The notes under the pieces were generated by a model. That model searched no databases. It saw nothing but the letters and a program-made list of their open reading frames with translations, and was not told where the DNA came from. The position numbers and the translations under genes are program-made. A stretch of DNA of 64,000 bases, from assembly GCA_017534745.1 (NCBI GenBank), contig JAFXVX010000019.1:62001-126000 (forward strand), in the 5' to 3' direction. Positions 1,882 through 21,740 of the stretch are shown here, piece by piece; positions within the stretch are counted from its first letter, which is position 1; every line of letters starts with the position of its first letter. Origin of the DNA: Bacteroidales bacterium (GTDB taxonomy: Bacteria > Bacteroidota > Bacteroidia > Bacteroidales > UBA932).

Positions 1882-4263
1882 TTAGATATCTTTTTCCTCG
1901 TAGGTGAAGGTCGTCTTGCCAATCTGGAAGGTGGTGCCGTGGTAGAGGTTCTGGTATTTGTCAACCTTGAGCGGCTTGCCGCCTACGGTGACGCCCTCCT
2001 CGAGGGCCATGAGGCGAAGAACACCCTTCTTCATGGTGATTTCAGCATGGACGGGGGCTATCTTGCTCTGGAGATCCCATGAGACCTGGAGCGAGCAGTC
2101 CACCGATTTGCCTATGGAAACCACGGCATTGGGATTGGCCCTGAACCATTTATAGATGGCTATATCCATTGTCTTCACCGCGCCCTGGGCGTGGAGGAAA
2201 TAATGTTCCGATCTCGGGGCTGCGGTGGCGATGGCGAGCATTATGCCTATGTCGTAGATCATAATGCTGAAAAGCAGCAGCACACGGAAGTCAATCCCGA
2301 TGAGCATATAGCAGGAATACCACAGGTACATCGAAAGGATCGACACGCCGGCAGCTATAAGGATAATTGTCTTCTTGAGTTTGATACGGGTCCCAAGGGT
2401 CGCAATGACGGCAGTCAGGTAGCCGGAGAGTATCCACGGTATCAGGTTGAGGATGAAGCTGACCGCTTCCAGGTGGAGGGCTATACAGGCCAGGCTGACA
2501 AGTAGATACAGCAGGGACGAGATTGCGCCGGCGACGGTGGATCTCAGCAGAATGTCAAGCCAGGAGAGGAGATGCTTTTTCCTGATGGACATAAGGCAGA
2601 TGCCTGCTGTCAGGAAGAACCCGACTAAAAGTCCGTAGGAAGGCAGCTGGTTGAGGTGGGTGCCGTTCTTGTCTGTTGTGAGATAGTCAACCGGGATGAG
2701 GTATTCCAGGATGTGTTTCGATGTGAAATTGGTCCAGATGGAAAGGGCCACCCAGGCGCAGACGGACATCAGGATGCCCATCAGCAGCCAGTTCATGTAG
2801 AACGGGGCGTTGCGCCTGTCGGAGAGATGCTCCCTGTCGTAGAAATGGGAGCCTTCCTTGCAGTGGCGTCCGTATTCGGGACAGTGGTACTCGTTCTCAT
2901 CCCAACAGGACTTGTGCATTGTGTGGGCGCACTTGACCACCACCTCGTCGCCTTCCTTGAAGGGCTCCTTGCACAGATAGCAGGACTCGGCCACTGCGGT
3001 GTCTCCAATGACCATGTCCCTGCCGGTGTGACGTACGACGTATTTCCGGAGGAACAGCCGGTATTTTACGTACGGCACTATGAACTGGAGAATCAGGTAG
3101 AGCAGCAGCATGATGATGAGCCCGATGCTGACTCCCTGGATAATCACTCCCTTCAGGGAGTCGCCGTTGACGATGATGGGCTTGTAGAGCGAGCCCTCCC
3201 GGATTGAAGCTGTTGCAGAGGCTATCTGCCGTTTTTCCTTCAGGGAGTAGAAGATTAGCTTCAGCTGGTTGTTGTCTCCACGGTACACTTTCCTGTCGGG
3301 GTTGACAAAATCAAAGCGGTTGGAGACAATCATGTCGCCGTGCTCTCCGAGCATAGCCGCCTCAAGTCCTGGCCAGCTGAATGCGGGGAAATACTCACCG
3401 CCGGTGGACTGGCAGACGGAGGTCAGGAGGTTGGTGGCGTCGGAGTCGTCAGCCGCGTCGGCCGCCTTCTTCGCGAAGTTGACATAGCAGATGCTTACGC
3501 TGTCCGGCATCTCTGAGTGGAGCAGGTCGTTCTCAATCTTGAAATGTTCGGCATCAAGAGGGACGTCGCCGTCGCCGTAGAGGCGACCGTCGGAGAAGAC
3601 CACGAGTTTAATCTCGCTGGCGTCCGCCCAGGGCTCCTTTCGTTCGGATATCTCCTGGAGTTTTGTCGATATGGACCGGTAAAGGTACACCTTGGAAGAG
3701 TTGTTCCTGAAGTACTCCTTCAGGATGTAATCCGTGATGCCATGGGTCTTGGAAACCGATTTGTCAGACATGAAGGCGACATATAGATTGCTCCTGTTGA
3801 GGACGGTGAACATTTCCTCGATGGCCGCATGCTCCGCCTCGATCTGCTCGTCGGAGAGCGACAGGTCCACCAGCACGAGCACTTTCATCCCGAGCTCGGC
3901 AATCTGGTCGCTTTCTGTGTTCCAGGCCTTTACAAGGCGCGGGTTGACGCGCCGCGCCGCCAGAACGCCGTCGTCGTATTCCTCGACGTCGATGCGGACG
4001 GAGGTGGAATCGGTGAGTGAGTACGGTCCGATGTCGCCGACTACGCTCGTCCACACGGAGAAGGTCTTGTAGTCGGGGGCGAATTTGACCTCCTTGACGA
4101 CCATCTTCTCCCCGGATCCGCCGTCCTTGCTCCCGGGCAGGCCGGAAGCATCGAACATGGAGGTCGGGTCGCTCACCCCGAGATGTGACATGAAATCGGA
4201 CTGGCACGCCGAGAGAGTCAGCGCGGCAGCGACGGGCAAAATGTATCTGAAGATCCTTTTCAT
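1882..4263 (-). CDS. T6SS-linked lipoprotein: vWA-like, RING-like, seven TM, FHA-like
   Basis: 793 residues with an unusual layout. Residues 1-20 are a lipoprotein signal (LSAC, Cys20). Residues ~125-310 look like a vWA domain, with DLSLS at 133-137 as a DxSxS metal site and VVFSDGR at 221-227. TM1 is ~371-395. Residues 428-468 hold C428-x2-C431-x13-C445-x-H447-x2-H450-x2-C453-x7-C461-x6-C468, a RING-H2-like pattern whose last spacing (x6, not x2) is off. TM2-7 follow at about 488-510, 541-560, 571-597, 600-622, 631-650 and 659-681. Residues ~700-793 resemble FHA (SIGKS, HAEI, a late GTTFQIG strand). Positive-inside charges put RING and FHA in the cytoplasm and vWA in the periplasm. It is last in the T6SS series, 10 nt after its neighbour. 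It may stand in for TssR (periplasmic) plus TssN (multi-TM) of Bacteroidota T6SS and be the E3 of the nearby E1-E2-UBL set. Both roles are inferences. Confidence 0.75.
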   Translation of the reverse strand: MKRIFRYILPVAAALTLSACQSDFMSHLGVSDPTSMFDASGLPGSKDGGSGEKMVVKEVKFAPDYKTFSVWTSVVGDIGPYSLTDSTSVRIDVEEYDDGVLAARRVNPRLVKAWNTESDQIAELGMKVLVLVDLSLSDEQIEAEHAAIEEMFTVLNRSNLYVAFMSDKSVSKTHGITDYILKEYFRNNSSKVYLYRSISTKLQEISERKEPWADASEIKLVVFSDGRLYGDGDVPLDAEHFKIENDLLHSEMPDSVSICYVNFAKKAADAADDSDATNLLTSVCQSTGGEYFPAFSWPGLEAAMLGEHGDMIVSNRFDFVNPDRKVYRGDNNQLKLIFYSLKEKRQIASATASIREGSLYKPIIVNGDSLKGVIIQGVSIGLIIMLLLYLILQFIVPYVKYRLFLRKYVVRHTGRDMVIGDTAVAESCYLCKEPFKEGDEVVVKCAHTMHKSCWDENEYHCPEYGRHCKEGSHFYDREHLSDRRNAPFYMNWLLMGILMSVCAWVALSIWTNFTSKHILEYLIPVDYLTTDKNGTHLNQLPSYGLLVGFFLTAGICLMSIRKKHLLSWLDILLRSTVAGAISSLLYLLVSLACIALHLEAVSFILNLIPWILSGYLTAVIATLGTRIKLKKTIILIAAGVSILSMYLWYSCYMLIGIDFRVLLLFSIMIYDIGIMLAIATAAPRSEHYFLHAQGAVKTMDIAIYKWFRANPNAVVSIGKSVDCSLQVSWDLQSKIAPVHAEITMKKGVLRLMALEEGVTVGGKPLKVDKYQNLYHGTTFQIGKTTFTYEEKDI

Positions 4264-4273
4264 CCTGTTCTTG

Positions 4274-5161
4274 TTATATGGTCGGATATTCGTCCGTACC
4301 GTTCAGTTTCAACGTTTCCTTGTATTTCTTCATGGCCTCCCTCGTGTCCTTGATGGACTTGATGCGGGCTCTCAGCATACTTATGAACATCAGCAGAACC
4401 GCCACGGCGGCAAACGCCAGAAGGTAATCCTTTATCCTCTGTATCAGCGGTTTGTAGGTCATCTGCTGGATGGTGTCGGACTTGTTCTTGAGGGCGGCGT
4501 AGGAATCTTCCAGCGCTGCCATCCTTTCATCGGAGACCAGGCCGTAATCCTTAGCCTTCTTTGCGGCGTCAAATTTCTCCTGGACCGAGGCAAACAGGAG
4601 CTGCTCTTTCTGTTTTTCCTTTTCGAGAAGGGGTGCAGTCTTCTGGGTGAGGGAAAGCTCGAATGCCCGTTTGCCGATGTTGTTGTAGGTGCTGTCCAGC
4701 CCTTCAAACATGGACTGGGCCTCCATGAAGGACTGCAGGGAGAGGAACATCTGCCTGCGGACTTCAAGGGAGTCGCCTGCATCCTGCTTCATCAGCTCGA
4801 GGCGCTCGACGCTCGACATAAGCGTCTCGTCGAGCGCGACGGCCCACTGCTGCGACGGGTAGTAGTTGTTCCACCGGATGTCGAAGGAGCGGAGGCTCGA
4901 CTCGGTCGTCCTGATGCGGCGCTCGAGCACCCTGAGGTAGCCTTCCGTTATCGGGCTGTCTTCCGAGACGGGAAGCCTCGCGATAGCAGCGTCATAGATG
5001 CCCTGAAGGTCGCCGAGGTACTGGTCTATCCTGGCCTGTATTTCAAGGCGGATGGACTCGTCTAGGTGCTCCCCGGCCGGCTTGTCCTGTGCAAGCAGGA
5101 CACCGGAAGCCGCGAGGAACCCAGCCAGGACTGCGATATATGAAATCCTTCTTACGGTCAT
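4274..5161 (-). CDS. Exported helical protein with C-terminal membrane anchor, T6SS-linked
   Basis: 295 residues. A signal peptide (to about residue 25, ending LLAQ) is followed by a largely helical, charged periplasmic region of about 215 residues with coiled-coil character (KEKQKEQLL, FDAAKKAKDYG), one membrane helix at roughly 245-264 (YLLAFAAVAVLLMFISML) and a basic cytoplasmic tail of about 29 residues. I do not recognise the family. It lies 4 nt after the 380-residue exported protein and 10 nt before the vWA/RING/FHA protein, so the three probably form the envelope-spanning part of this T6SS, in place of TssJLM or as divergent TssO/P/Q proteins. That assignment rests on position and topology only. 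Confidence 0.6.
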   Translation of the reverse strand: MTVRRISYIAVLAGFLAASGVLLAQDKPAGEHLDESIRLEIQARIDQYLGDLQGIYDAAIARLPVSEDSPITEGYLRVLERRIRTTESSLRSFDIRWNNYYPSQQWAVALDETLMSSVERLELMKQDAGDSLEVRRQMFLSLQSFMEAQSMFEGLDSTYNNIGKRAFELSLTQKTAPLLEKEKQKEQLLFASVQEKFDAAKKAKDYGLVSDERMAALEDSYAALKNKSDTIQQMTYKPLIQRIKDYLLAFAAVAVLLMFISMLRARIKSIKDTREAMKKYKETLKLNGTDEYPTI

Positions 5162-5165: not shown

Positions 5166-6308
5166 TTAACGGCAGGTTTTCTTGAAATATTGCTCGGCCT
5201 GTCTGTACACCCGTACAGCGCTCTCTTCCTCCGGGGACATTACATAGGGGTATCTCGCTATGATCCCTGAGACGTCTTTGACAATCTCGTTGCACTGGGA
5301 CACGAGGTCCGACTTCTCCAGTTCGTCCTTGCTGACGAGGTACCGTGCGACGGATTTGTCTATCTGGCGGGCCTGGGCGTAGATCATCTTGGTGTCCAGG
5401 GTCTTGACATCTCCGGGCTCCTCCGGCATTTCTATCCTGCAGAAATGGGTGGAGATGGAGTCAACGTAGCTGTTGTATCCGTCCGTCGCATCCTGGATGT
5501 CGGGACAGGTGGACTGGGACTGCTTCTTTGGGAACTGGGTGAGCAGCACCTGCTTGGTCTCTTTGTAGGTCTCGAGCGCGTCCATGGAAGGGACGGTGCC
5601 GCTTGCGTAAACTTTATTGAAATTCTCGTAGGCGGCCTTGACGGTCTCGACGTTCGCCTTGGCTTCCGCTATCTCATCGTCTCTCCCAAGGCAGGGGTTA
5701 CGCATGATGCGTATCTGGTACCTTACGTTCAGGTCCCGGCCCTGGAGAAGCTGCCAGTTGGACTTTTTCATGGGCTCGAGCAGCAGCAGATCCCTCAGGG
5801 TCACGCTGACCGACGTCCTCTTGTCCTGGATATCGAAGGTCTCGACTATGTAATCATTGACCATCTTGTAGTCGGCCGGGGCAGGCTGGAGTCCTTCATA
5901 TTCAATCCAGCGGTTGAATATGTACTTTTTCTTCGGGGAGGGGATTGATTTGACCAGCCCTTTGGAAAGTTTGAATTTGCTGCCTTTCTCCGAATCGGCC
6001 ACATAGGGCAGTCTGTCCGGGATGAGATGCCCATGGCTGACCACCGCCTTGTAGCGTGACGCCTCCCGGAAAACAAACAGCGTCCTGTAGGACAACGCGC
6101 TCACTGTGAGCTTGTTGTTGTCCTCGTCGAAGGCGAACTTGACCATCACGTCAGTGTCCCTGGAATCTTCGGACAGGGCGATGTGGTCAGTGCAGGACTT
6201 GTCTGCGCTGACGGAAATATTCTTTACTGTCTGGGCCTTCGCCGGGAGTGCCACAAGGCACAGCAGCGGGAGGAGAAGTCTCAGTATATGTGTTCTGCTC
6301 ATAATCAA
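5166..6308 (-). CDS. Exported protein of the T6SS envelope group, TssP/TssQ-like candidate
   Basis: 380 residues with a clear signal peptide (LLLPLLCLVALPAKA, then QTVKN). The first ~190 mature residues look beta-rich with alternating hydrophobics (VMVKFAFDEDNNKLTVSALS); the rest is helical with several Cys (NPCLG, STCPD, FCRIE, SQCNE, KKTCR) that could form periplasmic disulphides. No membrane helix after the signal. Its start overlaps the E2 gene stop by 4 nt, so translation is probably coupled to the E2. Bacteroidota T6SSs use TssN to TssR rather than TssJLM; this could be one of the periplasmic members, but I see no signature that names it. Confidence 0.55.
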   Translation of the reverse strand: MIMSRTHILRLLLPLLCLVALPAKAQTVKNISVSADKSCTDHIALSEDSRDTDVMVKFAFDEDNNKLTVSALSYRTLFVFREASRYKAVVSHGHLIPDRLPYVADSEKGSKFKLSKGLVKSIPSPKKKYIFNRWIEYEGLQPAPADYKMVNDYIVETFDIQDKRTSVSVTLRDLLLLEPMKKSNWQLLQGRDLNVRYQIRIMRNPCLGRDDEIAEAKANVETVKAAYENFNKVYASGTVPSMDALETYKETKQVLLTQFPKKQSQSTCPDIQDATDGYNSYVDSISTHFCRIEMPEEPGDVKTLDTKMIYAQARQIDKSVARYLVSKDELEKSDLVSQCNEIVKDVSGIIARYPYVMSPEEESAVRVYRQAEQYFKKTCR

Positions 6309-6886
6309 TCTTGGTCAAAATAAATCCATTCGTTGGGCTCTCCCTGGCGGATTACCCATGCCGCAACCTGCATGTCTTCCGGATAGGGCGGCTCGCTGAC
6401 GGCGTGGTATCTCTCGTATCTGAGGTACTGGGCAATTCTCTCGACCCCCCATGCGAGCTCGGTGTAAGTGTCGTCCTGGTTCAGGCAGACGCGGCCGGCC
6501 ATTTCGCCGAAATAACGGATGTTCGGATGCCATGGGTGGGGAAACGGGTTGCCATCCCCGTCACTTGTCAGGAAACGGAACACCGGAGCACCGTCCACGC
6601 AGGGGTAGTTTGCCGGGAGCACAAGCTCCATGCGGAAGGCATCGGCGAAAATGGGAGGATTGCTGACACCGGCTTCGCCAAGCCGGTCGAGATGTTCCAC
6701 GCCGCAGATGCTGCGGATGCTGTAGTCCACAATGTATCGCACCGGAAGTCCGTCGGCACCGACAGAGCCCACCGAGACAGTAATGTCGCTCCGCCGGTCG
6801 AAACGGTCTTCCAGGATACGCCATTCGGTGAGCAGGCGCTTTCCGCGTCCGCTCAGCCTTTCCGGTATGAACTCACAGCTTCTCAT
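6305..6886 (-). CDS. E2 ubiquitin-conjugating enzyme-like protein (UBC fold)
   Basis: 193 residues. The E2 hallmark is present in order: LVLPANYPCVDGAPVFRF (the strand-turn with the P-x-x-Y-P type motif) at 88-105, HPNI at 120-123, then GRVCLN at 131-136 with Cys134 as catalytic candidate, and Trp146 a dozen residues later. In eukaryotic E2s these are the HPN motif, the xCL active site and the conserved Trp. Length exceeds the ~150-residue core, with an N-terminal helix (GKRLLTEWRIL) as in E2s. It would take the UBL from the E1 at 11306-12433 as a thioester. It starts 3 nt after the UBL gene and overlaps the next gene by 4 nt. It is a stand-alone E2, not the E1-E2 fusion (Cap2) of type II CBASS. 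Confidence 0.88.
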   Translation of the reverse strand: MRSCEFIPERLSGRGKRLLTEWRILEDRFDRRSDITVSVGSVGADGLPVRYIVDYSIRSICGVEHLDRLGEAGVSNPPIFADAFRMELVLPANYPCVDGAPVFRFLTSDGDGNPFPHPWHPNIRYFGEMAGRVCLNQDDTYTELAWGVERIAQYLRYERYHAVSEPPYPEDMQVAAWVIRQGEPNEWIYFDQD

Positions 6887-6889
6887 CGA

Positions 6890-7207
6890 TTAACCCGGGA
6901 AGGGATCAGGAACGAGAAACAGGGTGTCGCCGTTGTGGACGTTGTAGTCCGCGAGGGTCTGGTCGGTGCGCCCGATGCGGGGACGAAGGACCCTGACTTC
7001 GTGTACGTCCGGATCCTCGACTCCGAAGAAATAATCCATCGGGGCGCCGGTCTCGTCGAGCGACGGGAAGTCGAAGATGAGCCTTCCGTCACTGCCGGTG
7101 GCGTGACGCAGGTTTGTCATCAGCGTGGAAAGGGGCGCGTCCGGATTGATTACCTTGAAGCGGACCTTCTTGTTCTTGTACACTAGATCCAAAAAGAAAT
7201 CTTCCAT
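6890..7207 (-). CDS. Ubiquitin-like protein ending in glycine
   Basis: 105 residues, beta-grasp pattern: an N-terminal hairpin (FLDLVYKNKKVRFKV), a helix (APLSTLMTNLRHAT), and a C-terminal part QTLADYNVHNGDTLFLVP that resembles the ubiquitin segment RTLSDYNIQKESTLHLV. The chain stops at PFPG, so Gly105 is the terminus without processing; ubiquitin ends in GG, so the single Gly is a deviation. Immediately followed by the E2 gene and preceded by tssF (5 nt). It would be adenylated by the ThiF-fold E1 and passed to the E2. A non-conjugated role such as that of YukD/EsaB in type VII secretion is the alternative, but E1 and E2 nearby favour conjugation. Confidence 0.87.
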   Translation of the reverse strand: MEDFFLDLVYKNKKVRFKVINPDAPLSTLMTNLRHATGSDGRLIFDFPSLDETGAPMDYFFGVEDPDVHEVRVLRPRIGRTDQTLADYNVHNGDTLFLVPDPFPG

Positions 7208-7212
7208 ATCTT

Positions 7213-8919
7213 TTATTCCTCTATATTGATATTCACTTTGATGGGGTAAATGCCGGCGCTTCTGGCTTCGGCCATTTTCTGCAGGAGAAGTTCAGTCCCG
7301 CGGAGCTTGTCCGTGAAACTGCGTTTGATGAAGGCGTTTCCGACGAGGACGATATTCACCACGATTTCGTAGCCGAAACCGGTGTCGTCCCGGTCCAGCC
7401 GCCTGCCTGTTTCCAGGCGGCTTATCAGGCTGTCCTCTATGCCGTAGAGCACCATAAGCTGCTTCCTGCAGAAGAATTTGATGTCAGCCATGGTGACGAG
7501 GCGGTCGCCGGTCACCATGAAATAGCGCAGGAGGCTTCCGGTTGCTGCTTCGTCCTTGACCTCGTCCATGCCGGGAGCCGGCGTGGCAATCATTGCGGTC
7601 CCGGCGGGGGAGAAGCCTGAAGGGGCCTCGAACGGGGTGCCGAGGAACGGGTTTATTGCCGCGCCTGCCGTGGTGAGATACCTGACATCCAGGCTGAAGT
7701 CTTTCTTCTGCTGACTGAGCGGGCCGCGAGGCATGAGATAGACTCCGGACACGTTCCGGAGAACATCCTGGGCGCTTTCGCTCTTGAGCTGGGCCATGGC
7801 GGACTCCAGCTGCACGACGGCCTTGCCGGCCACCTCGCTGCTCAGCTGCCGGAAGGCGTAGAAATCGGAACGGTATCTGGTGACTATGCAGTTGAGCAGT
7901 TTGTAGAGGCTTCCCTGGTTGAATCGGTCTCCGGCTACACCCCTGATTTCCAGCGGAGTGTCACCGTAAATCTGGGTCTCCGGAGGACGTATGAGGTGGA
8001 GGAACTGCCGGGACGAAAGATCATCGTCCGGCGAGGCGCTCTGCCCGCCGACAAGGTGTGCGATGGGGTTCTGCGCCGAAATCGTGACCTCTCCGACGCT
8101 GGCGTTGACAAGCAGGATGGCGTTGAGCGCCAGATTCTCCCTGTCGAAGGAAAACTTGTCGGAAATGCCGGTAAACTCGAAGATAAGGTCTATCTGGTCG
8201 GTCTCGGAGGGGATGAACGTCTCCGGGGAATGCTTCTTGACACAGAAGAGCCGGACATTCTGACGGGCGAAAAGGTCCATCGGGAGGAGGGAAGTGTTCC
8301 AGAGCTGTCCGAGGTTATAGGACATCGAGTCGGGGGAGAACAGCGGTGAGAGCGGAAGCTCCGAGTAATGCCAGGGCTTCACCAGGGGAAGAAGCCGGTT
8401 TCTGACGGAAATGTGAACGTCGGCGAAATCGACGCCCTTTATGGCGAAGGTAAACTGCGACAGGTCGGTGACGGGGAACTTGAACCTGAGCGATACTTTC
8501 CATCTGCGGCCGTCAAGGCGTGTCACGGAGTGGATCGTGGCGTTGAGGGCCCTGGATTCGAGCAGTGGAATGAACGGATGGCCTCCCTGAAGGAGAAAAC
8601 GTGTGTTTTCTCCGACGGCGATTTCTTCAACGTCGTCCTGGAGGGCCGTCTCGACAACGGCAGTCGCAGGGACGGCGTGGCCCATTTCATAGGGTACGAG
8701 GAGGCGGGCGAAGTCTTCCAGTACTTCGCTCTTGAGCCTTTCGATCTCGCTGTCGATTTCGTTTGACTGATATGCCAGGGCTGTCATCAGGAGCGAGAAC
8801 ACGGGATCGTCTCCGAGACCTTCAAGGTCTTCGGCCCGGTCGCTCTGATTCCAGACTGCCTGGGCTTCTTTCAGCAGTTCATCGGCCTTCTGGCGTGTTT
8901 CAAATGATATCTGTTTCAT
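7213..8919 (-). CDS. tssF: T6SS baseplate subunit TssF
   Basis: 568 residues, typical TssF length. The N-terminus has the family layout: a helical start, then DPVFSLLMTALAYQSNEIDSEI and LLVPYEMGHAVPATAVVE, followed by beta domains (FPVTDLSQFTFAIKG) and, at the C-terminus, a long region with the receptor-like end (MADIKFFCRKQLMVLYG). TssF works with TssG, TssE and TssK in the wedge that surrounds the VgrG spike in the cytoplasm. It lies 6 nt after tssE and 5 nt before the ubiquitin-like gene, placing the UBL gene inside the baseplate block. I recognise the family with good but not absolute confidence, because the Bacteroidota forms are divergent. Confidence 0.85.
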   Translation of the reverse strand: MKQISFETRQKADELLKEAQAVWNQSDRAEDLEGLGDDPVFSLLMTALAYQSNEIDSEIERLKSEVLEDFARLLVPYEMGHAVPATAVVETALQDDVEEIAVGENTRFLLQGGHPFIPLLESRALNATIHSVTRLDGRRWKVSLRFKFPVTDLSQFTFAIKGVDFADVHISVRNRLLPLVKPWHYSELPLSPLFSPDSMSYNLGQLWNTSLLPMDLFARQNVRLFCVKKHSPETFIPSETDQIDLIFEFTGISDKFSFDRENLALNAILLVNASVGEVTISAQNPIAHLVGGQSASPDDDLSSRQFLHLIRPPETQIYGDTPLEIRGVAGDRFNQGSLYKLLNCIVTRYRSDFYAFRQLSSEVAGKAVVQLESAMAQLKSESAQDVLRNVSGVYLMPRGPLSQQKKDFSLDVRYLTTAGAAINPFLGTPFEAPSGFSPAGTAMIATPAPGMDEVKDEAATGSLLRYFMVTGDRLVTMADIKFFCRKQLMVLYGIEDSLISRLETGRRLDRDDTGFGYEIVVNIVLVGNAFIKRSFTDKLRGTELLLQKMAEARSAGIYPIKVNINIEE

Positions 8920-8925
8920 GGTCTC

Positions 8926-9378
8926 TTACTTCCAGACATTGATAACGGTGGAATACTGGTAGGCCTTTCCGGTGGAGATGATCTTTCCTTTCACGACGAC
9001 GTAGATCTTCCTCTCCTGCCTCGCATAGGTCATGGACACTTTCACATCGGAGAGACGTTTCTCGTAGTTCTCGATTTTTTCCCTGAGCCTGGCGGCAAAG
9101 GTGTTGAGGTTGCTGGACGAACCGCTGAGTTTTTTGCTGTAGATGCCTTCAGGGTCGTCGCTTTCGTCGGCGGAGGAGTTGTACACCACGCCCTCGTTCT
9201 CATTGAAAATCTCAAACCTGAGATTGTTGAAAATAAAACCGTAAACCGGATCGGCGGCGGAGTCTCCGCAGGGCGTGGACATGAGCAGCGAAAGGGCGCT
9301 GTCTATCGCCTTTTTGGAGTTGTCGATACGGGCCAGGCGGCCTTTTTCAATGCGGAGGGGTATGGACAGGTTGCTCAT
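8926..9378 (-). CDS. tssE: T6SS baseplate subunit TssE (gp25-like)
   Basis: 150 residues, the size of phage gp25/TssE. The pattern is an N-terminal basic start, a helix (SKKAIDSALSLLMSTP), a segment corresponding to the gp25 turn (DPVYGFIFNNLRFEIF), then a helix (NTFAARLREKIENYEKRL) and a terminal beta hairpin (KIYVVVKGKII). TssE links the inner tube start to the sheath and wedge. It sits between tssK (7 nt) and tssF (6 nt) in the order expected for a baseplate block. The usual EExR-type signature is not obvious, so the call leans on size, fold pattern and position. Confidence 0.75.
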   Translation of the reverse strand: MSNLSIPLRIEKGRLARIDNSKKAIDSALSLLMSTPCGDSAADPVYGFIFNNLRFEIFNENEGVVYNSSADESDDPEGIYSKKLSGSSSNLNTFAARLREKIENYEKRLSDVKVSMTYARQERKIYVVVKGKIISTGKAYQYSTVINVWK

Positions 9379-9385
9379 ATTCCGA

Positions 9386-10525
9386 TTACATCATGGGGAA
9401 AAACTCTTCTTCTTCCTCTTCGGGCACATAGAGGGCGTTGTAGAGCGCCTCGTAGAGCTCCGGATAGAGTTTGTCGTGGAGGGACGGATCCAGCTCGCCC
9501 GAAAGGGTATCGTGAAGCTCCGGCTTCATCTTTTCGTCGATGAATTTGCGGAGCGTCTCCGACAGCTTCTCGCTGAGCTCGGTGCGAAGTTCTTCCTTGA
9601 TCTGCCGCAGCAGGTCGGCGCGGAGCTCCGGATTGAGTTTCTCGTAGAGCTCGGCCTTAGCCTGGGCCAGAAGGGCTTCGTAATCAATCGAATTGTCCTC
9701 CAGGACCACTGTGTCGAGGATGCTTGCGGCGCCTCCGAGGTAGTCCGAAAGCCACTGGAGCCATTTCTGGAGATCGTACTGCGAGACAGCGGGGATTTCG
9801 ACAGGGTTTTCCGTGTTGGGCTTGACGATGTAATAGTCGATGGCCTGGGCAATCTCCCGAGTGAGCGTGACGAACTCACTGACGCTGCCGTCCCAGCGGT
9901 ATCCCTTCAGGATGAACATATAGCGCAGCAGCGCACGTTTTCCTTCCCCGTCGGCGAGGTTCGCGTGGGAGGAGAGGACCTCCAGCTTTTCAGCGAACGA
10001 GGCCCCGTAAACGGCAAACCTCGGGTCGCTTTCGAGAACAAGGCAGGGCGGGATGAATTCATCGTCGCGGGAGAATATTCCGTCCGACACCTTGAAGCGG
10101 GCTACCGGGAACAGGTCCTCCTTGTCCAGCTCGTCCAGCGAGTGGATGGCAAACTTCTTCTGGGGACGGACGTACGGCACGCCTTCCTTCTCAAACGCGG
10201 TGTCTTCCCCGCCGGGGGCGACGGTAAGATAGTACTCCTGCCCGAACAGCATCGGGATTGCGACGGAGACCGGCTCGTCGGCGCCGATCAGTCTCCCGGA
10301 CGGCAGGACAGCCGAGCACTGGAATCGCGCTATCTCGAATGTGTTCTTCACAAATGCGCCGGCGGCTGAAAACGCCGCTCCGGGCAGAATGCCGAACCGT
10401 TCTCCGCCCAACGCGGCCCGTACGGCCGCCTGCTGGCGGAAATCCAGGTTCCGGTCAAGCTCTTTCAGCGTCTGCGCTGAAAGCTCCATCCCGGGGGCCC
10501 AGTTTATTCTTGCATCAATGTCCAT
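9386..10525 (-). CDS. tssK: T6SS baseplate/membrane-complex connector TssK
   Basis: 379 residues from ATG at 10525, which follows the tssG stop by one base (TAATATG); an ATG 24 nt further upstream would overlap tssG and add eight poorly fitting residues. The N-terminus NWAPGMELSAQTLKELD matches the TssK shoulder start, and LFPVARFKVSDG fits the beta region. The C-terminus is odd: after ~residue 265 it becomes repetitive and acidic-helical (repeats of the type ELYEKLNPEL, KLSETLRKF, ELDPSLHDKLYPELYEAL), ending EEEEEEFFPMM. TssK normally connects the baseplate to the membrane complex through its C-terminal domain, so the helical tail may fit the unusual envelope proteins here. Confidence 0.8.
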   Translation of the reverse strand: MDIDARINWAPGMELSAQTLKELDRNLDFRQQAAVRAALGGERFGILPGAAFSAAGAFVKNTFEIARFQCSAVLPSGRLIGADEPVSVAIPMLFGQEYYLTVAPGGEDTAFEKEGVPYVRPQKKFAIHSLDELDKEDLFPVARFKVSDGIFSRDDEFIPPCLVLESDPRFAVYGASFAEKLEVLSSHANLADGEGKRALLRYMFILKGYRWDGSVSEFVTLTREIAQAIDYYIVKPNTENPVEIPAVSQYDLQKWLQWLSDYLGGAASILDTVVLEDNSIDYEALLAQAKAELYEKLNPELRADLLRQIKEELRTELSEKLSETLRKFIDEKMKPELHDTLSGELDPSLHDKLYPELYEALYNALYVPEEEEEEFFPMM

Positions 10526-10526
10526 A

Positions 10527-11309
10527 TTACAGTTCTGTGTTATAGTCAAGTATCATGTTTTCATCCAGACGGGGGGAGGCGGAGTGGTGCCTGACAAGGA
10601 TGTCGAGGCGCACTTCCGCGGGCATGAACCACTCGGAGAGGAAATCCCTGAGCGGCAGGATATCTGCCTGGAGGGTCCTGAACTCTTCTGCCGTAAGATC
10701 CGGCTTGAGAAGTTCAAAGCGGATATGGGGTATCCACGCCCTGGTGCTGTCTTCTTCGCTGAAGCGTCCGTCGCGGCGGACGACTTCGCAGTCGAAGACG
10801 GAGGAGAGCAGCCGGCGGAGCATCTCCATATCACCCCTCCAGTGGCGGATATAGGGCAGAAGGACGGCGAACTCCCTGATATATGGGTTCTTCTCGGCTT
10901 CGATGTCGTAGCCGAAGAAGGTCCTGAGGATAAAGGAGAGTTTGTCGGAGAGCAGCTCCGAGACGTCCTTCTCCACTTTGAGGCGACGGCGGAACTCCAC
11001 CGAATCAAACGGCAGGAACGCTTCCGAGAGGACCCTGCGCTGCAGGTTCAGCTGCCGGTGCTTTTCCTGGACGTCTCCGCTCTTGAGGTCGTCTTCCATC
11101 GAGAGGAGGCCCTGGGGCAGGAGGTCCAGCAGGCCGTCCCGGGAGAGCCACACCGTGGCCTCCTCGGGGCTTATCTCCATCGCGTCGTGGCTGTAGTTGC
11201 GGTAGAACGTGCCGTCATAACGGACGATCCACTTATCCTCCAGCTCCGGATAGAGGTAGGTGAGCAGCATCTCGGCTCCGATCTCTGTGTTCTGAACAGA
11301 CTTTCTCAT
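10527..11309 (-). CDS. tssG: T6SS baseplate subunit TssG
   Basis: 260 residues. It shows the TssG pattern: a tail-proximal region with PYIREFAVLLPYIRHWRGDMEMLRRLLSSVF-like helices (conserved L..Y......G.....ll...f), then FRTLQADILPLRDFLSEWFMP and a final beta strand. TssG partners with two TssF copies in the wedge. Its start overlaps the E1 gene stop by 4 nt and tssK begins one base after its stop, so E1, TssG and TssK are likely made from one coupled message. The N-terminal ~90 residues are poorly conserved with what I know of the family. Confidence 0.75.
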   Translation of the reverse strand: MRKSVQNTEIGAEMLLTYLYPELEDKWIVRYDGTFYRNYSHDAMEISPEEATVWLSRDGLLDLLPQGLLSMEDDLKSGDVQEKHRQLNLQRRVLSEAFLPFDSVEFRRRLKVEKDVSELLSDKLSFILRTFFGYDIEAEKNPYIREFAVLLPYIRHWRGDMEMLRRLLSSVFDCEVVRRDGRFSEEDSTRAWIPHIRFELLKPDLTAEEFRTLQADILPLRDFLSEWFMPAEVRLDILVRHHSASPRLDENMILDYNTEL

Positions 11310-12433
11310 TGCATTTCCATATATGCTTCCCCTGAAGATGTGCTGACGTGCAGCACTTCTTTTTCGGGGATTCCCAACTGTCCCACCGTGAGGGACTTGT
11401 AGGGAAATCTTTCATCGATTTCCCTGTATTCGTGCTGGTACAGGGCGCTGAAGGGAAAGCCCCTCCAGTCCGGGTCCTGTCCAAGCCTCTCCGCCACTTT
11501 CCTTCCCGGAAGCATCACTGTGAGCGATGCATTATTATCTTTCCTTATCACACGGTCCACGAAGCAGTCTGCGCTGAGGTGGATCGTCACTTTTTCCGCG
11601 CCGAGCTCTTTTCCGAGCATTTCCAGCGCCTGCCCGACCGTGGTCTCTGCCGTCACGGCGGTCTCTTTCACAGGCTCCCACCTGTCGTGGACCGGGCAGT
11701 CGTCGTCCCAGGCGGCGAGCTCGACGACCCTTGTCGTCATGTGCTCTCCCTCGAAGCAGAACATCCGTCCGCAGAGGGAGGTGAGAGCGCCTTCTTCAAG
11801 CAGCTCCGGGTGGAGGAGCTTAAGCGCCTCCTGCACCTGTACCGCTCCCGTCACCGAGGCGATGATCGAGCTTGTCGGGGCCTTCCCGGCCTGCTCGTCC
11901 CGGCGGATGATCTCCGGGCAGGGGATTCTCCTCGCAAGGTCTTTCAGCCCCTCGGGCCCCAGCTGGCAGGCGTAGCAGTTTTTGCCCGGGACAAAAACCC
12001 TCACTGTACCCTCCAGGTAGCTTATACCGCCATCGACCCACGGCACTCCGGCCCTCATGCAGAGCCTGTTGATGCAGTAGCGGGCCCACCGGTTGTCCAC
12101 GCATCCTATCACCACATCCATCTTCCGGATGAGCCCGAGGCCGACATCGAAGGCGACATCGCCACGGACAGTATTTATTTCAATGCGGGGATTCATCCCC
12201 GCGAGGCGTTCTGCCACCACATCCACTTTGAATCTTCCCTTCAGCGCGTCTTCCCTTGAAAAAAGAACGCTCCGGCTCAGGTTCCCCGACTCCACGCGGT
12301 CGAAATCAACCGCCCAGATGTGCTCCGCTCCCATAAGGGCGAGGTTTTTCAGGACCTCGTTGCCCAGGGCGCCGCACCCCACGACCATTATCTTCGCGGC
12401 GGAAATCCTGTCTGCCCTGAAGGGACTATTCAT
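11306..12433 (-). CDS. E1-like ubiquitin-activating enzyme (ThiF/MoeB fold)
   Basis: 375 residues. The adenylation domain is clear: VVGCGALGNE (17-26) nucleotide loop, D44FD-RVESGNLSRSVLF (46-58) with the E1-type Arg, and GCVDNRWAR (110-118). Cys153/Cys156 (YAC) with Cys246 could bind zinc, though only three Cys are obvious. Cys172 in RRIPCPEI occupies the place of the catalytic Cys of E1s. The C-terminal ~120 residues form an extra domain ending SLTVGQLGIPEKEVLHV, a motif I associate with small prokaryotic E1s. It would adenylate Gly105 of the UBL and form a thioester. Overlaps: 8 nt with the upstream gene, 4 nt with tssG. ThiF or MoeB proper is unlikely as no thiamine or molybdopterin gene is near. 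Confidence 0.87.
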   Translation of the reverse strand: MNSPFRADRISAAKIMVVGCGALGNEVLKNLALMGAEHIWAVDFDRVESGNLSRSVLFSREDALKGRFKVDVVAERLAGMNPRIEINTVRGDVAFDVGLGLIRKMDVVIGCVDNRWARYCINRLCMRAGVPWVDGGISYLEGTVRVFVPGKNCYACQLGPEGLKDLARRIPCPEIIRRDEQAGKAPTSSIIASVTGAVQVQEALKLLHPELLEEGALTSLCGRMFCFEGEHMTTRVVELAAWDDDCPVHDRWEPVKETAVTAETTVGQALEMLGKELGAEKVTIHLSADCFVDRVIRKDNNASLTVMLPGRKVAERLGQDPDWRGFPFSALYQHEYREIDERFPYKSLTVGQLGIPEKEVLHVSTSSGEAYMEMQ

Positions 12434-13118
12434 CGCCCGGCGTCATTTTCATCTGTGTCCCGGCCTGGGCCTCCTCGGCTTTCTTCTTGGCCTCTTCCTT
12501 CTTTTTGTCCCGCTCTTCCTTATATATATTGTAGGCCTTTTCAATCTCCTCTTCCTTGGCTGCCTTCATCTTCCCCGCAATGTCGCCGGCATCGTCATGA
12601 ATCTTCTTCAGGGTGTCTTTGGCTTCATCCAGCTCGTCCTTCGGCGCTCCGGCGAGTTTGAGGGCGATCTGCGCCGTGGCCGTGTTGAAGGTAGCATCCA
12701 TCTGGGCTTTGCACACGTCGGAGAGCACTCCCACGGCTTCAGTGAGGAACTTGTAACGCGCATCATCCACGGGGGGAACGGTCGCAAGGATGAACTTCTC
12801 CTCGTCGTCCTCCTCGTCCATGCCTACAAGTTCTATCTTGTATTCCGGATGGACATCGTTGATGGCTTTGACAAGGGGCATAAGCAGGTCCTGGTCGTTG
12901 GGATAGATTTCGAACTGGTCATCCCTTTCGGGAGCGTTCCTTGCTTTGGCGACTTTCTCGATGGCGAACTTGTCCCCGTCAAGATCTACGAACACGCAGA
13001 GCAGCGCTTCCGGCTGCGCCAGGACGCTGAGATTGGAGTAGCGGTAGTTCAGAAGGGCCGCGTAGCCGCTCATCTTGCTCTGGGCATTGTCCAGAATGCC
13101 GACGACACTTTTTTTCAT
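12426..13118 (-). CDS. Unknown 230-residue protein in the T6SS/ubiquitin-like operon
   Basis: Not recognised. No signal peptide or membrane helix, so cytoplasmic. The first ~115 residues look alpha/beta (ALLCVFVDLDGDKFAIEKV, KFILATVPPVDD), then a long charged helical region (roughly 150-220) rich in Lys and Glu (MKAAKEEEIEKAYNIYKEE) that is probably coiled coil, ending in a loose TQMKMTPGDE tail. It overlaps the PEGA gene (4 nt) and the E1 gene (8 nt), so it is made together with the E1. It could be a substrate, adaptor or chaperone of the secretion or conjugation machinery; nothing in the sequence decides. Confidence 0.7.
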   Translation of the reverse strand: MKKSVVGILDNAQSKMSGYAALLNYRYSNLSVLAQPEALLCVFVDLDGDKFAIEKVAKARNAPERDDQFEIYPNDQDLLMPLVKAINDVHPEYKIELVGMDEEDDEEKFILATVPPVDDARYKFLTEAVGVLSDVCKAQMDATFNTATAQIALKLAGAPKDELDEAKDTLKKIHDDAGDIAGKMKAAKEEEIEKAYNIYKEERDKKKEEAKKKAEEAQAGTQMKMTPGDE

Positions 13119-14434
13119 ATTCTTTTTTTCTTTTTCAGTTTCATGTAAACGTCCGTGAGGTTGTTGCCCCTCGGAGGAATCTTCTGGGAGACAGCTTTGT
13201 AGCCGTCCTTGGAGAGGGTTACCCTGTAGTTCCTGGTGGCTTCAAGGCGTACGATTTTAGGGGTCTGTCCGTAATCTTTCCCGTCTATAGTGATGTCCGC
13301 GCCTGCCACGTTGCAGTGGATGTTGACGAGACCGTATCCGGCTCCGGCGGCTTCGAGGGTGATTTCCTTCGGGAAACTGTCCTCGATAAGGAGACGGAGA
13401 GGGGAGGAGGACACTCCTTCCTTCCTGGCTTCAACGAAGTGGATGCCCAGAGAGAGGGAATCTTCCCACTCCCCGACGGCTTTTTTCTCCAGGTCAACCC
13501 AGATCTCAGCCTGCGGGTCGTGGGCTGTGATCTTGACGGGAGTAAGCCGGACGGCCGCGAGCGCGACGGAATCGGGCGGGGCGACAGGCATCGGATCCGT
13601 CAGCTTGAGGGGGAGGGGATGAAGGTCTGCGTCCGCGATGGTGAGAAGTTTCTTTTCCGCCCTTCCGACGAGAAGAAGCGAGTCGTAGCAGCATTTGTCT
13701 TTCCTGAAGACATTGACCCTGTGCCAGCCTTCCTGCATACGGAGGCTTGTCGCTTCTTTTTTGCTTATGCGGGCAAGGTCGATGTAGAGGTCCCGCCGTC
13801 CGCGCCACTCCGGCTTAACGGTAAGGTAGGAATAGAAAGGCTGAAGCCTGACCGGGATGTCCGCCCTGACGCTGTCCGAAAGTTCGAATGAACCTTCTTC
13901 CGCCTCATAGAACGGGGATTCGACCCTGTAACTATGCTTTCCTACAGGAAGATACATCTCGACGATGTCGCTCCGGACCTGCTTTGAGAGCGAATCCACG
14001 GTGAGGAGGGTATTGGCAGGGCTCATCCTGAAGATCACCCACTGCTTAGGCGCCTTGAAATCGACCGTGGGGTCTGATGCGAAGAGCAGAGCCCTATAGT
14101 GAGAGTTGACCTTAAGTGACTTGTTTTTGGCTGATTTCCAGGTGTATTGCCCGAAGGACGGGTGGCGGATTACTATGGCCTTGGTCTTTTTCGGGAACTT
14201 CACGGTTACCATCCCGTCTCCTTCCTGCGCTTCGGCCTGCACTTTCCCGTTTGCAAGGAAGGTGAAGCCTTTTTCTTCAGTGACGAAGTCCACGATGGCG
14301 GAGGCTTTGTCCACTTCAATCGTTTTGTTCCACGGCATGCGACGGACTTTGGCAAACTCCTCCACGCTCATCTGCTGCGCTGCGAGCGGCAGGCAGGCGA
14401 GTACGAGAAGTATGACAAGTCCCGTGCGTTTCAT
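13115..14434 (-). CDS. Exported PEGA-domain protein in the T6SS operon
   Basis: 439 residues. Signal peptide at 1-20 (VILLVLACLPLAAQQ). The mature chain is beta-rich with repeated surface-type segments, including PVGKHSYRVESPFYEAEEG and, at the C-terminus, a PEGA repeat: VNIHCNVAGADITIDGKDYG followed by TPKIVRLEATRNYRVTLSKDGY. PEGA domains are small beta domains found in exported and surface-layer proteins. The end is very basic (KLKKKKRI). It sits 2 nt after the PAAR-like gene and overlaps the 230-residue gene by 4 nt. It may be a periplasmic element of the apparatus that binds peptidoglycan or the envelope complex, but this is only position-based. Confidence 0.75.
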   Translation of the reverse strand: MKRTGLVILLVLACLPLAAQQMSVEEFAKVRRMPWNKTIEVDKASAIVDFVTEEKGFTFLANGKVQAEAQEGDGMVTVKFPKKTKAIVIRHPSFGQYTWKSAKNKSLKVNSHYRALLFASDPTVDFKAPKQWVIFRMSPANTLLTVDSLSKQVRSDIVEMYLPVGKHSYRVESPFYEAEEGSFELSDSVRADIPVRLQPFYSYLTVKPEWRGRRDLYIDLARISKKEATSLRMQEGWHRVNVFRKDKCCYDSLLLVGRAEKKLLTIADADLHPLPLKLTDPMPVAPPDSVALAAVRLTPVKITAHDPQAEIWVDLEKKAVGEWEDSLSLGIHFVEARKEGVSSSPLRLLIEDSFPKEITLEAAGAGYGLVNIHCNVAGADITIDGKDYGQTPKIVRLEATRNYRVTLSKDGYKAVSQKIPPRGNNLTDVYMKLKKKKRI

Positions 14435-14436: not shown

Positions 14437-14826
14437 TTACTTTCCTTCGGCCAGGCAGACATTGCCGGGCATTGTTACCTCAATGCAGCCTCCCCAGTTG
14501 CAAATGCATTTGCAGTTGTCCAGAAGGGCGGGCATATTTGAAATCATCTCCTGTCCTCCAGGAGCCCAGGGCGCCGCTATGACAGGGATGCATGGCATCG
14601 GTGTAAGGGTCCCCATCGCCGCCGCGGTCGCCGATGCGACCGTCGGATTTGCCAGCGACTGGCACATGCCGAAGGGCATGATGTTGGCCATCGGCTTGTT
14701 GTCCATGATGTTGGCTATCGGCTTATTCTGGACCTTGGCCCGCATCGGGTCTATCACCATCAATGATGACGGCGCCATACCGAAACTGCATTTTAGCAGT
14801 GCTCCTGCACACACGAACTTGCCCAT
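14437..14826 (-). CDS. PAAR-like spike-tip protein (DUF4280)
   Basis: 129 residues. Starts GKFVCAGALLKCSFGMAPSSL and continues with repeated short turns (NKPIANIMDNKPMANIMPFGMC), CNCK-like cysteines (DNCKCICNWGG) and TMPGNVCL, the pattern of the DUF4280 PAAR-like family. These small proteins cap the VgrG trimer as a metal-stabilised point and can carry effectors. It follows the 596-residue spike partner by 4 nt and belongs to the vgrG, partner, PAAR cassette. The cysteines (at least eight) fit zinc or disulphide stabilisation. Confidence 0.87.
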   Translation of the reverse strand: MGKFVCAGALLKCSFGMAPSSLMVIDPMRAKVQNKPIANIMDNKPMANIMPFGMCQSLANPTVASATAAAMGTLTPMPCIPVIAAPWAPGGQEMISNMPALLDNCKCICNWGGCIEVTMPGNVCLAEGK

Positions 14827-16630: not shown

Positions 16631-19600
16631 TTATAAGTCTTTCATTGAGTCGATAATCTCTTTTTCTATCGCTCCGAACAACCGGTCCGGATTCTTGTAC
16701 TTTTCAGTGGTGCCGTTCTTGAAACGGACAGTCTGCTTCTCTTCGTCGGAAAACAGAATTTTCCCCTCCGATGTAGGCGACCAGACCCACCATTCGAGCG
16801 GAATGATTTTTTTCATGATCGTGAGATCTCCCACTGCGCTTTCAAATCCCTGTTTCAATCCCTTTTTGTAATCACTCATGTTTTCAGGCTTCTCCGTCAC
16901 CTTGATGGCGTTCACGTATTTCGGCCAATCGGTATCGGAGAACGGATTGTTGGGATCGGTGGGGTCAGTGTTGGTTGAAGTCACAATTCCGAGGTCGTCT
17001 ATGGTCCTGACATCGCCGTAAACCGCGGCCGGAAATTCGCAACCGCTTACAGGATTCTGCGCACCGCGACACTTCTCGATGACTTTGTGGAGAAGTCTTC
17101 TGCAGGTGTATTTTTGCCAGTCCGCAAAATCTGCAACATCAATTTCATTATTGAAGAGTGCGAGATTGGGATGATTGACGTAATCTCTAATCTTTGTTAC
17201 GTAGTATGAAAACAGTTCGTGAGGATTTGACGCCCCGACAGGCGCTCCTCCTCCTCCTCCAAGAATTGCCTGCGTGGCTTCAAGTATGGCCGGAGCATCT
17301 GCGGCCAGATTGAAATCGTCGAACTTGGGGTCCAGATCATTAAAATATTGGCCGAAATTCGCCGAAAGTTGTTTGAGGGCAACAACTTTTTTCATCAGTA
17401 CAAGAGAAGCCCTGTTTAAAGTCCGGAGATCATTGTTCAGGGCTGTGCGCTTGAATGAGAACTTATTCGAGTCAGATACGTAACCAAGCATAGCGTGGGG
17501 GGCAGACGCGACATCCTGCGGAGCGTTCTCGAAAATATTCTTGACAAAAGTATCTTTGGTGGTTGGTTTTTCTATGGTTTTCCCATTCCCGAAAATATTG
17601 ACGGCGAATGCGTCGCATGCGTCCTTGACATCATTGAACGCAGTTACATAATCTGAAACCAAAGTATCGAGACGTCGGGTGATTTCTTCCGTAAGATCAA
17701 CGACGATTTTCGCATTATTTGCAGGGGACCGGGAATCCAATGGCCGGCTGGCGTATTTTGCGGGCTCTTCGGCCGTGCTTCCTTTGCCGGCTTCGAGTTG
17801 CATGTACCTGTTGGATTTGAAGGCCATCGTGCCGTCTATCGGACGGACGAAAATCTCGAGGAAGGAGCGGATCAGCGAGAAGTCGAAGAACTTCATGACT
17901 GTCATGTCCATAAGCGACTTGCCCAGCTGGCTGCCGACGGTCTTTCCTTCAGTAAACGCCGACAGGTAGCCCCAGAGGCTTTTTCCGCCTCCCAGCTTGA
18001 TGTTTTTGCCTGAGGTCACAGAGACTTTGTTGTAGGCCACGAGGTTGATATTCTTTCCTGTGATGCTTACGTCACCGTTGGGAGCGTCGATGGAAATCCC
18101 GGTCAGGGCGTCAACCTTAATATCTCCAAGCGGACTGGAGATTTTGATCTGGCGGTCGTGCGAGGACATCTTGATGCTGTATAGACCTGGCTTGTCCGTG
18201 ATCTCAATCCCGCCGAGGGCGGACGTCGCCTCTCCCTCAAGGCTGGGACAGTTGACCCCGAAGGAGTTGAGGAATTTGACTCCGGGGACAGTGCTGTTAA
18301 GGATGAGGGTCGCGTCGGAAGGGTCGTCCATCTTGATGGTGTGGCCGTTCTTTGACATGATCACCCTCTTACCCCTCAGGGGAGCCGGAACGTTTTTGGA
18401 GTAGAGCGCTCCGGTCACGTAGGGCCTCTCAATGTTGCCGTTTTCGAAATCCACCATCACTTCGTCTCCCTTTTCGGGCCGAAAGTACATGCCGCCTCCG
18501 GGGGTGGCGGAAGGGGTGGCCATACGGATCCACGGGGTGGCGGCTTCTGCAATCATAAGGGTATTCTTGGCCTTGAGCCATGTTGACTTCTTGGTGGCAT
18601 CGTTGGAGTCTTTTTCATAATCATTCCTGGCCGTTTTCTCTGATTTGGCTTCAGTGGAGACAGACTGCTGCCATGGGTAACGGATGCGTACGCGTCCCTG
18701 GCCGGAAGGATCATCGGCGTCGATGACAAAGGCCGGCTGGGGACCGCTGCTGAGGAACTGCTTGCCAGGAAGGACCGGGGGATAGAACACATCGGTACTG
18801 CCCTCCTTGACCATGGGGATGGCGTAGATAATCTGCGACTGGCTGCTGGAGTCCAGGTCGATCTCCACGACTACGTATGTCGTCCCGCTGTCCTGGGAAA
18901 TGGTGATTTTGTCACCGAGTTTAACGTTTCTGAAGCCCTCTCCCATATCGATGCGGACTGTCTTGCGCGCCTGCTCCTCTTCCTTTTTACGAATGGTCTC
19001 GTAGTGGCTAACTGTGAGCCAGTGATCAGTGTCACTGTCCACCTGGGAGAAGAGTACTGCATAATCGGGACTGCTGCCGATGCCCTGTTCATCGATCAGA
19101 TCATTTCCTTTCTTCGTGGTTTTCTCGGCTTTTGCCGCCAGGGCAAGTCCGGCTTCAATCTCTTTCTGGCCCCACTTTGCAATTAACTCCAGCAGCGAAG
19201 TCGAATTGAGGATCTGTGAGACCCAGCCCACCCATCTGGCCTCCATGTCACCCAACCACAGTTCGGTGCTGTTGTCGTGGGCGAACTTATTCTTGAAAAG
19301 AATCATATAGTGGTCTTCCGACGCTATCTCCGAATTGTAGGTGAATTTGTTGCTGGGGAATGCTCCAGTTGGGAAGCCATTGTCGGCTCTGCCAATCGGG
19401 TCTGTGATTACATCGCCGTCTTTCGGCTCATAGGTGTCGTAAGTGACTTTCTTCCCGTCAACGGTCTCTGTCTTTTTTCTGGTCTCTTTCCCGGGATCAA
19501 GGGAGAAATCGCTTGTCGGGAACTCGCTCGTGGAGAAGGGGCCTTTCGAGACGCTCTGGAAACTGACTCGCCGGGCGTTGTCGATTTTGTAGGCCGTGGC

Positions 19601-21241: not shown

Positions 21242-21260
21242 CGGCTTTTTTTTAACAGGG

Positions 21261-21287
21261 AAGTCAGCCGGCTCGGCCGGCTGACTT
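21261..21287 (-). terminator. Perfect 12-bp intra-operon hairpin after the first tube genes
   Basis: Plus-strand AAGTCAGCCGGC, loop TCG, GCCGGCTGACTT: twelve perfect base pairs with a three-base loop, flanked by GGG/CCC that could lengthen the stem. It sits in the 69-nt gap between the second and third tube genes. On the transcribed strand no U-run follows, so it is more likely an RNA-end protector or partial terminator than a full stop. That would keep sheath and tube transcripts abundant relative to spike, baseplate and conjugation genes. Confidence 0.7.
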
Positions 21288-21310
21288 GTATTCCCTTGAT
21301 TGATAAATGA

Positions 21311-21709: not shown

Positions 21710-21740
21710 AATATGTTTCCTCCTTAATTATTGTTCAACA

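Follow-up and report, generated by a model that had tools for sequence, protein, structure and literature searches.

A ubiquitin-like conjugation set within a Bacteroidales type VI secretion operon and its possible role in baseplate docking

Among bacterial systems related to ubiquitin conjugation, those of the Bil type have an anti-phage role, and in CBASS type II the activating (E1) and conjugating (E2) enzymes are fused in one protein, Cap2. Systems that conjugate a ubiquitin-like protein (UBL) by means of E1, E2, JAB and RING proteins are already known or predicted in bacteria (PMC7159879, PMC11354881). Bil (BilABCD) has two UBL domains in BilA, two adenylation domains in BilD and a CEHH motif in BilB (PMC11354881), and in the FtsH-ternary systems the UBL is fused to the E2 and to EAD1 and occurs with MoxR, vWA and FtsH (PMC7159879). 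As for secretion, the ordinary type VI secretion system (T6SS) of Bacteroidota has a membrane complex made of TssNQOPR, and tssN lies systematically between tssK and tssG; TssN resembles EccD, its ubiquitin-like domain has been proposed to dock the baseplate via TssK, and the lipoprotein TssR contains a vWA-like domain (PMC10781749). Here, we describe a T6SS operon that contains an E1-like enzyme, a UBL, an E2-like enzyme and a membrane protein with a RING segment, hereafter the cassette, in a 64,000-nucleotide stretch of a Bacteroidales genome (GCA_017534745.1, contig JAFXVX010000019.1, positions 62,001 to 126,000), hereafter the window.

The T6SS of the window is like the Bacteroidota subtype iii in its TssC (PF17541), Hcp (PF17642), VgrG, TssK, TssE, TssF, TssG and ClpV, and, as TssR is in that subtype (PMC10781749), the RING membrane protein, which we call RF, is here a lipoprotein-type protein with a vWA domain. 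However, TssN, TssO and TssR are without a match at cut-off, and E1, UBL, E2 and RING genes, together with two genes for exported proteins, are found instead. The cassette shares with Bil a UBL, an E1, an E2 and, in relatives of the window system, a JAB protein, but it has one UBL domain, one adenylation domain and an HPN motif, it is associated with a RING-vWA-FHA protein and a T6SS, and the window genome has no JAB match. The E1 adenylation domain is also a feature of Cap2/Cap3 of CBASS type II, whereas E1 and E2 are here separate genes accompanied by their own UBL and RING protein; likewise, the E1, E2, UBL, RING-type E3 and JAB (here only in relatives) recall the UBL tri-ligase of the FtsH-ternary systems (PMC7159879), yet UBL and E2 are separate and their partners are T6SS genes. 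The PpkA-Fha-PppA pathway (PMC3224232, PMC6657622) offers another parallel, with a membrane vWA protein, an FHA domain and a likely post-translational control of the baseplate, except that here a RING protein and a UBL cascade replace the kinase and the phosphatase. In the part of the open-licence literature that was covered (the RING survey of Burroughs et al. 2011 being outside it), we found no report of a UBL conjugation set within a T6SS or an extracellular contractile injection system (eCIS), and the bacterial E1/E2/UBL pathways found there belong to antiphage defence or to predicted conflict systems.

The cassette and the exported proteins that accompany it are listed below. For comparison, we used six named loci (L003 to L008), which come from metagenome assemblies of ruminant-gut Bacteroidales, from an uncultured Prevotella and from the cultured Xylanibacter ruminicola D31d (L008).

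11306..12433 (-), E1-like activating enzyme, 375 aa, with a ThiF adenylation domain
6890..7207 (-), ubiquitin-like modifier, 105 aa, ending in ...DPFPG, with Gly105 as the last residue
6305..6886 (-), E2-like conjugating enzyme, 193 aa, with a WHPN motif and an invariant Cys134
5166..6308 (-), exported protein, 380 aa, with an N-terminal hydrophobic segment, no Pfam match, in 6/6 named loci
4274..5161 (-), exported protein, 295 aa, with a C-terminal hydrophobic segment, no Pfam match, in 6/6 named loci
1882..4263 (-), membrane protein RF, 793 aa, candidate E3

The T6SS genes form a single compact unit on the minus strand, from about 26.9 kb down to 1.9 kb, with intergenic gaps of at most 69 nt and several gene overlaps. 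The order runs from E1 through the baseplate genes to UBL, E2, the two exported proteins and the RING protein; E1 and tssG overlap by 4 nt, tssF and UBL are separated by 5 nt, and UBL and E2 by 3 nt. A first-pass annotation of this DNA had already placed E1, UBL, E2 and the RING protein in a T6SS operon, and the open reading frames do exist at the coordinates it gave; the overlap of E1 with tssG and the 5 nt between tssF and UBL are borne out, and the location within a T6SS operon is supported by the domain matches, by the TssC/Hcp/VgrG/ClpV context and by conservation with the T6SS. Its description of the RING gene as lying four genes further was wrong, this gene being the third after E2, with the two exported-protein genes in between. 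The vWA and FHA domains of RF, the JAB proteins of relatives, the missing TssN/TssO/TssR matches and the cassette copies without TssC go beyond that annotation.

The E1 has a single Pfam ThiF match (1e-48), its best profile match among PDB chains is UBA7 (3.3e-32), and it is similar both to ThiF/MoeB and to the adenylation portion of E1-E2 models of the CBASS type (PADLOC, 2.8e-17). Its Cys172, invariant in 11/11 aligned loci, is a candidate catalytic residue, and C153, C156, C246 and H249 constitute, from their position, a candidate zinc site. For the E2, the UQ_con match (0.0026) is below the Pfam cut-off and the best match of its profile to PDB chains is UBE2K (6.6e-5), over the catalytic core; the HPN motif and C134 are invariant in 12/12 aligned loci, and relatives of this E2 number 941. 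That the two enzymes might prove to be unrelated folds, a possibility raised in the first-pass annotation, finds no support, their profiles matching true E1 and E2 chains of the PDB. Two further loci, L044 and L045, have an E1 and an E2 detected by profile, which stand outside these alignments. The UBL matches Rad60-SLD (1.4e-4) below the Pfam cut-off, and its profile matches ubiquitins among PDB chains, with best E-values that are inflated by tandem repeats. Its AlphaFold2 model (pLDDT 91) consists of a single UBL domain, for which the top Foldseek match is the ubiquitin-like domain of EccD5 (E 3.3e-3), ubiquitins being matched too. The C-terminal glycine is kept in 14/14 aligned rows, 12 of which end there, the other two having a short tail.

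These tails comprise 2 residues in L045 (11853-12137) and 4 residues in L019 (2783-3067); having residues beyond the conserved glycine, the two UBLs might have to be trimmed, possibly by the JAB protein next to them. We also observed that the C-terminal part of the E1 (residues ~260-375, about 110 residues) is conserved; eukaryotic E1s have their E2-binding UFD domain at this place.

RF consists of a lipoprotein-type signal, a vWA domain (117-312), a transmembrane segment, a RING, a transmembrane bundle (~490-681) and an FHA domain (715-782), the zinc ligands of the RING being C428, C431, C445, H447, H450, C453, C461 and C468. Its FHA match (2.9e-8) exceeds the Pfam cut-off, its zf-RING_2 match (1.8e-4) falls below it, and the profile of the RING segment matches RNF165 among PDB chains (0.0086). 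All eight ligands are present in 10 of the 13 loci that have RF, window included, and L019 has one of them shifted. When the model of RF was used for a fold search, the match list was filled by vWA domains, with one FHA (Ki67, Foldseek E 0.029); the search was made with the whole protein, and the absence of TssN or EccD among the matches is uninformative. As a separate observation, the RF proteins of L044 (15347-17728) and L045 (15325-17673) have lost most of the RING zinc ligands and kept a similar frame (DPITQDAFEEGD...), which is reminiscent of a U-box.

All six named loci have, in this order, PAAR, PEGA, E1, TssG, TssK, TssE, TssF, UBL, E2, the two exported proteins and the RING/FHA protein, and the UBL is 79-93 percent identical between the window and these loci. 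With respect to L008, identity is 79 percent for the UBL, 46 for TssF and TssG and 37 for the RING protein; among the operon proteins compared (up to 15, with TssB, TssC and Hcp outside the comparison), the UBL is the most conserved in L004, L006, L007 and L008. In three other T6SS lineages (G178, G388 and G046), the cassette is contiguous in the order UBL, E2, exported proteins, JAB, RING protein and E1. In G178 and G046, the baseplate genes TssG, TssK, TssE and TssF come next after E1; in G388, TssK, TssE and TssF follow it, and the TssG match is weak (0.007). A chance insertion is ruled out, because the order is kept in the six named loci and E1 stands beside baseplate genes in these three further lineages. 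With regard to the exported proteins, an hmmsearch with 7 candidates from other lineages matched a single protein, from G242, to the family of 5166-6308 (2.5e-8), and none to 4274-5161; the G178 equivalents of the two proteins are hence identified by position and look only.

These other lineages also bring in a further component, as a large JAB-domain cassette protein is found in seven related genomes outside the group of the window type. The best two of these proteins match PF01398 (2.8e-8 and 1.7e-8), the JAMM motif HxHPGxxxFxSxxD is present in 6/6 that were read and a hydrophobic segment in 5/5 that were tested; the seventh, from G242, lies on a separate contig, and in this genome the search for E1 and RF ended at the contig end. 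With the JAB profile, the window genome and 5/6 named-locus genomes give no match, that of L004 being outside the search. A JAB protein hidden in the window was considered and rejected, as 4274-5161 and 5166-6308 have no Pfam JAB match and the JAB profile finds none in the genome.

To describe the distribution of the cassette, we scanned genomes for its E2 with a narrow profile (A1) in an order sample and with a wider one (A6) in a phylum sample. Among the 393 genomes of the order sample, 6 have the E2 and 18 have TssC; in five of the six E2-positive genomes, E2 and TssC share a contig and are about 5 to 15 kb apart. Among the 395 genomes of the phylum sample, 3 have the E2 and 25 have TssC, the window genome being the only one with both. 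The E1, UBL, E2 and RF profiles find nothing in 14 TssC stretches from 12 E2-negative genomes. The first-pass annotation had asked whether related T6SS loci might lack the set, and the answer is divided: 13 of the 18 TssC genomes in the order and 24 of the 25 in the phylum have no detectable E2, but the T6SS loci that do bear it keep their neighbourhood and branch deep in the TssC tree. In this tree of 18 rows, the cassette rows lie deep, on both sides of the midpoint root, do not form one clade and need 2 changes, with long branches flagged; the TssC scores of cassette genomes are among the lowest found, alongside those of G258 and of a G273 fragment. Since the cassette rows are not one clade and long branches are flagged, an ancestral presence of the cassette followed by loss can be offered as a suggestion only. 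In G258, a divergent T6SS without a cassette (L020 and L021) has neighbours that resemble, by eye, Ser/Thr kinases, FHA proteins and a PP2C phosphatase.

With regard to the membrane complex, the Pfam models of TssN, TssO and TssR (TssP and TssQ being outside the search) give no match at cut-off in any of the 5 cassette-bearing T6SS genomes; in the window genome, which is one of these, they give no match even below cut-off. In the E2-negative genomes with TssC, matches over cut-off are found for TssN in 7/12, for TssO in 8/12 and for TssR in 4/12; this comparison covers 12 of the 13 such genomes of the order sample (G273, whose TssC fragment lies at the edge of a contig, was excluded) and, among the 24 of the phylum sample, G258 only. 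Besides, the tssG-tssK junction has no intervening gene in the window, in the six named loci, in G178 and in G046, nor in G388, with the weak TssG match there.

On this basis, we consider it about an even chance that the E1-UBL-E2 set and its membrane vWA-RING-FHA protein replace the TssN-type membrane complex and license the docking of the baseplate. E1 would charge Gly105 of the UBL and hand the UBL over to E2, with Cys172 and Cys134 as the presumptive carriers of the UBL thioesters. The vWA domain of RF would sense a periplasmic event and its RING would recruit the UBL-loaded E2, directing the UBL to a T6SS substrate at the inner membrane, with TssK or the RING protein itself as the likeliest target. 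The tag would then most likely license docking of the TssK-TssF-TssG-TssE baseplate, such that the ubiquitin-like surface carried in cis by TssN elsewhere would be supplied here in trans and bonded on demand. The FHA domain of RF could read a phospho-threonine or hold a partner, and may add an input from phosphorylation, and in the other lineages the JAB protein would remove the UBL. The sensing role draws support from the likeness of RF to PpkA, a likeness on which the main rival explanation rests as well.

Several observations weigh against this proposal. With no detectable JAB protein in the window lineage, reversal of the tag is left unexplained there. The cassette is found without a detected TssC in three genomes (G016, G456 and G550), and hence is not tied to T6SS alone; in two of them, G456 and G550, the RING segment lacks most zinc ligands. 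Four of the twelve E2-negative genomes (G247, G258, G270 and G331) are also without TssN, TssO and TssR matches, so that the absence of these proteins tracks the cassette loosely and may reflect missed divergence, and G388 has a TssN match below cut-off (0.0016), on another contig. The E2-negative genomes of the order sample may hide divergent copies, owing to the narrowness of profile A1. Conservation of the UBL is exceeded by that of PAAR in L003 and by those of PAAR and PEGA in L005, and the structure model of RF has a pLDDT of only 71.

The cassette could instead be a switch in the manner of PpkA-Fha-PppA, in which the vWA domain senses contact and a UBL placed on a regulator or on a part of the machine starts firing, the canonical membrane complex being present but diverged beyond detection. 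The extracellular sensor region of PpkA includes one vWA domain (PMC3224232), to be compared with the vWA and FHA domains of RF, and TssK assembly in Pseudomonas aeruginosa depends on PpkA activity (PMC6657622); moreover, the E2-negative G258, with kinase-, FHA- and phosphatase-like open reading frames near its T6SS (by eye), branches beside the cassette-bearing G388. However, the tssG-tssK junction, the usual place of tssN, is without a gene in these loci, and no kinase domain is found among the 20 operon proteins scanned with Pfam (7213-8919, 14437-14826 and 14831-16621 lay outside the scan), and we regard this switch as doubtful. That the UBL marks T6SS parts such as contracted sheaths or old baseplates, so that ClpV or a protease takes them apart, appears improbable: although a ClpV-like ATPase is encoded in the operon and the JAB proteins of relatives would allow reversal, ordinary T6SSs disassemble without a UBL tag, and no UBL-reading domain is among the 25 families listed of the 43 matched for ClpV.

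Because the E1 resembles both the CBASS-type adenylation part and ThiF/MoeB, and three genomes have the cassette without TssC, one may also ask whether an anti-phage UBL system (of the Bil, Bub or CBASS type) or a sulfur-carrier pair is merely located in the T6SS locus. We hold this to be very improbable, as E1 directly precedes the baseplate genes in several lineages and sulfur transfer needs neither an E2 nor a RING protein. An anti-phage assignment was in any case rejected: UBL, E2 and RF match no PADLOC model, and E1 matches only the adenylation part. Even less credit is given to the idea that the UBL, alone or with E2, is itself injected as an effector, or that it serves to tag effectors or proteins of the target cell; typical effectors are not highly conserved, and the UBL is highly conserved within the group. 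This idea is favored by an operon shared with VgrG, PAAR and Hcp genes and by the ubiquitin-like antagonist that Bacteroides fragilis secretes (PMC5705921), but E1 would have to be injected as well, or act before injection, and RF is a membrane protein.

The cassette copies without TssC bear on how far the docking proposal may extend. G456 and G550, which belong to the same genus, have the order NTPase, E1, UBL, E2, JAB and vWA-FHA protein; next to the G456 cassette, on the opposite strand, are a gene for PAAR and one for an eCIS_core protein, and the contig further carries, about 22 to 39 kb away from E2, the genes for an eCIS sheath, tube, gp25, spike and tape measure. In G016, SrfB- and SrfC-like genes adjoin the cassette. 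The contractile injection system tape-measure family is present in all three genomes, on another contig in G016 and about 60 kb away in G550. This co-presence is weak evidence for eCIS, considering that 66/326 genomes of the phylum have the family, that two of the three genomes share a genus and that sheath, tube and spike genes were confirmed on the same contig in G456 only. A broader proposal, to which we would give tentative credit and somewhat less than to the docking proposal itself, is that deep-branching Bacteroidales T6SSs, and perhaps some eCISs, are assembled by UBL conjugation, with RF bonding the UBL to the baseplate or to itself in replacement of the TssN complex and a membrane JAB protease resetting the system. 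A T6SS assembled in this way may represent an older state of the T6SS iii line.

Two further features of these genomes were seen. Longer proteins with UBL-like N-terminal segments, judged by eye, occur close to the cassette in G016 (L034, 9782-10528, 11540-12394 and 12412-13485), with SrfB/SrfC-like and subtilase genes around them and one weak Rad60-SLD match (0.029) among the segments; they are possible UBL fusions. In G456 (C65:128628-128870) and G550 (C11:654917-655156), where no TssC was found, the E2 gene is separated by about 21 and 26 kb, respectively, from a gene whose product has a TssR domain (PF17643, about 1e-17).

If the docking proposal were true, a bacterial ubiquitin-like cascade would have a structural, mechanical and non-immune job, which would be a new kind of role, and the anchoring or activation of a T6SS in which no TssN-type membrane complex can be recognised would become easier to explain. 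The cassette also offers a small and testable set of proteins from rumen commensals.

The other genes of the window operon are the following.

7213..8919 (-), TssF-like baseplate protein, labelled from position and relatives, without an NCBIfam match
8926..9378 (-), TssE (gp25-like), PF04965 1.6e-7
9386..10549 (-), TssK, a weak match to TIGR03353 (2e-8, below cut-off)
10527..11309 (-), TssG-like baseplate protein, labelled from position, gene order and relatives, itself matching no family
12426..13118 (-), protein with a weak resemblance to ribosome recycling factor, 230 aa, PF01765 2.8e-6, below cut-off
13115..14434 (-), exported protein with a PEGA domain, PF08308 1.1e-15
14437..14826 (-), PAAR-like spike tip protein, labelled by look, conserved in the six named loci
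16631..20311 (-), VgrG, PF04717 4.2e-18
20813..22133 (-), three Hcp (TssD) genes, PF17642
22173..23537 (-), TssC sheath protein, PF17541 1.6e-101
23562..24023 (-), TssB-like protein, labelled from its position next to TssC, without a family match over cut-off
24051..26285 (-), ClpV (TssH)-like ATPase, AAA_2 2.7e-57 and ClpB_D2-small 1.8e-18

Among these, the gene at 12426-13118 overlaps E1 by 8 nt; L007 and L008 have no match to it, and it is present in L003-L006.

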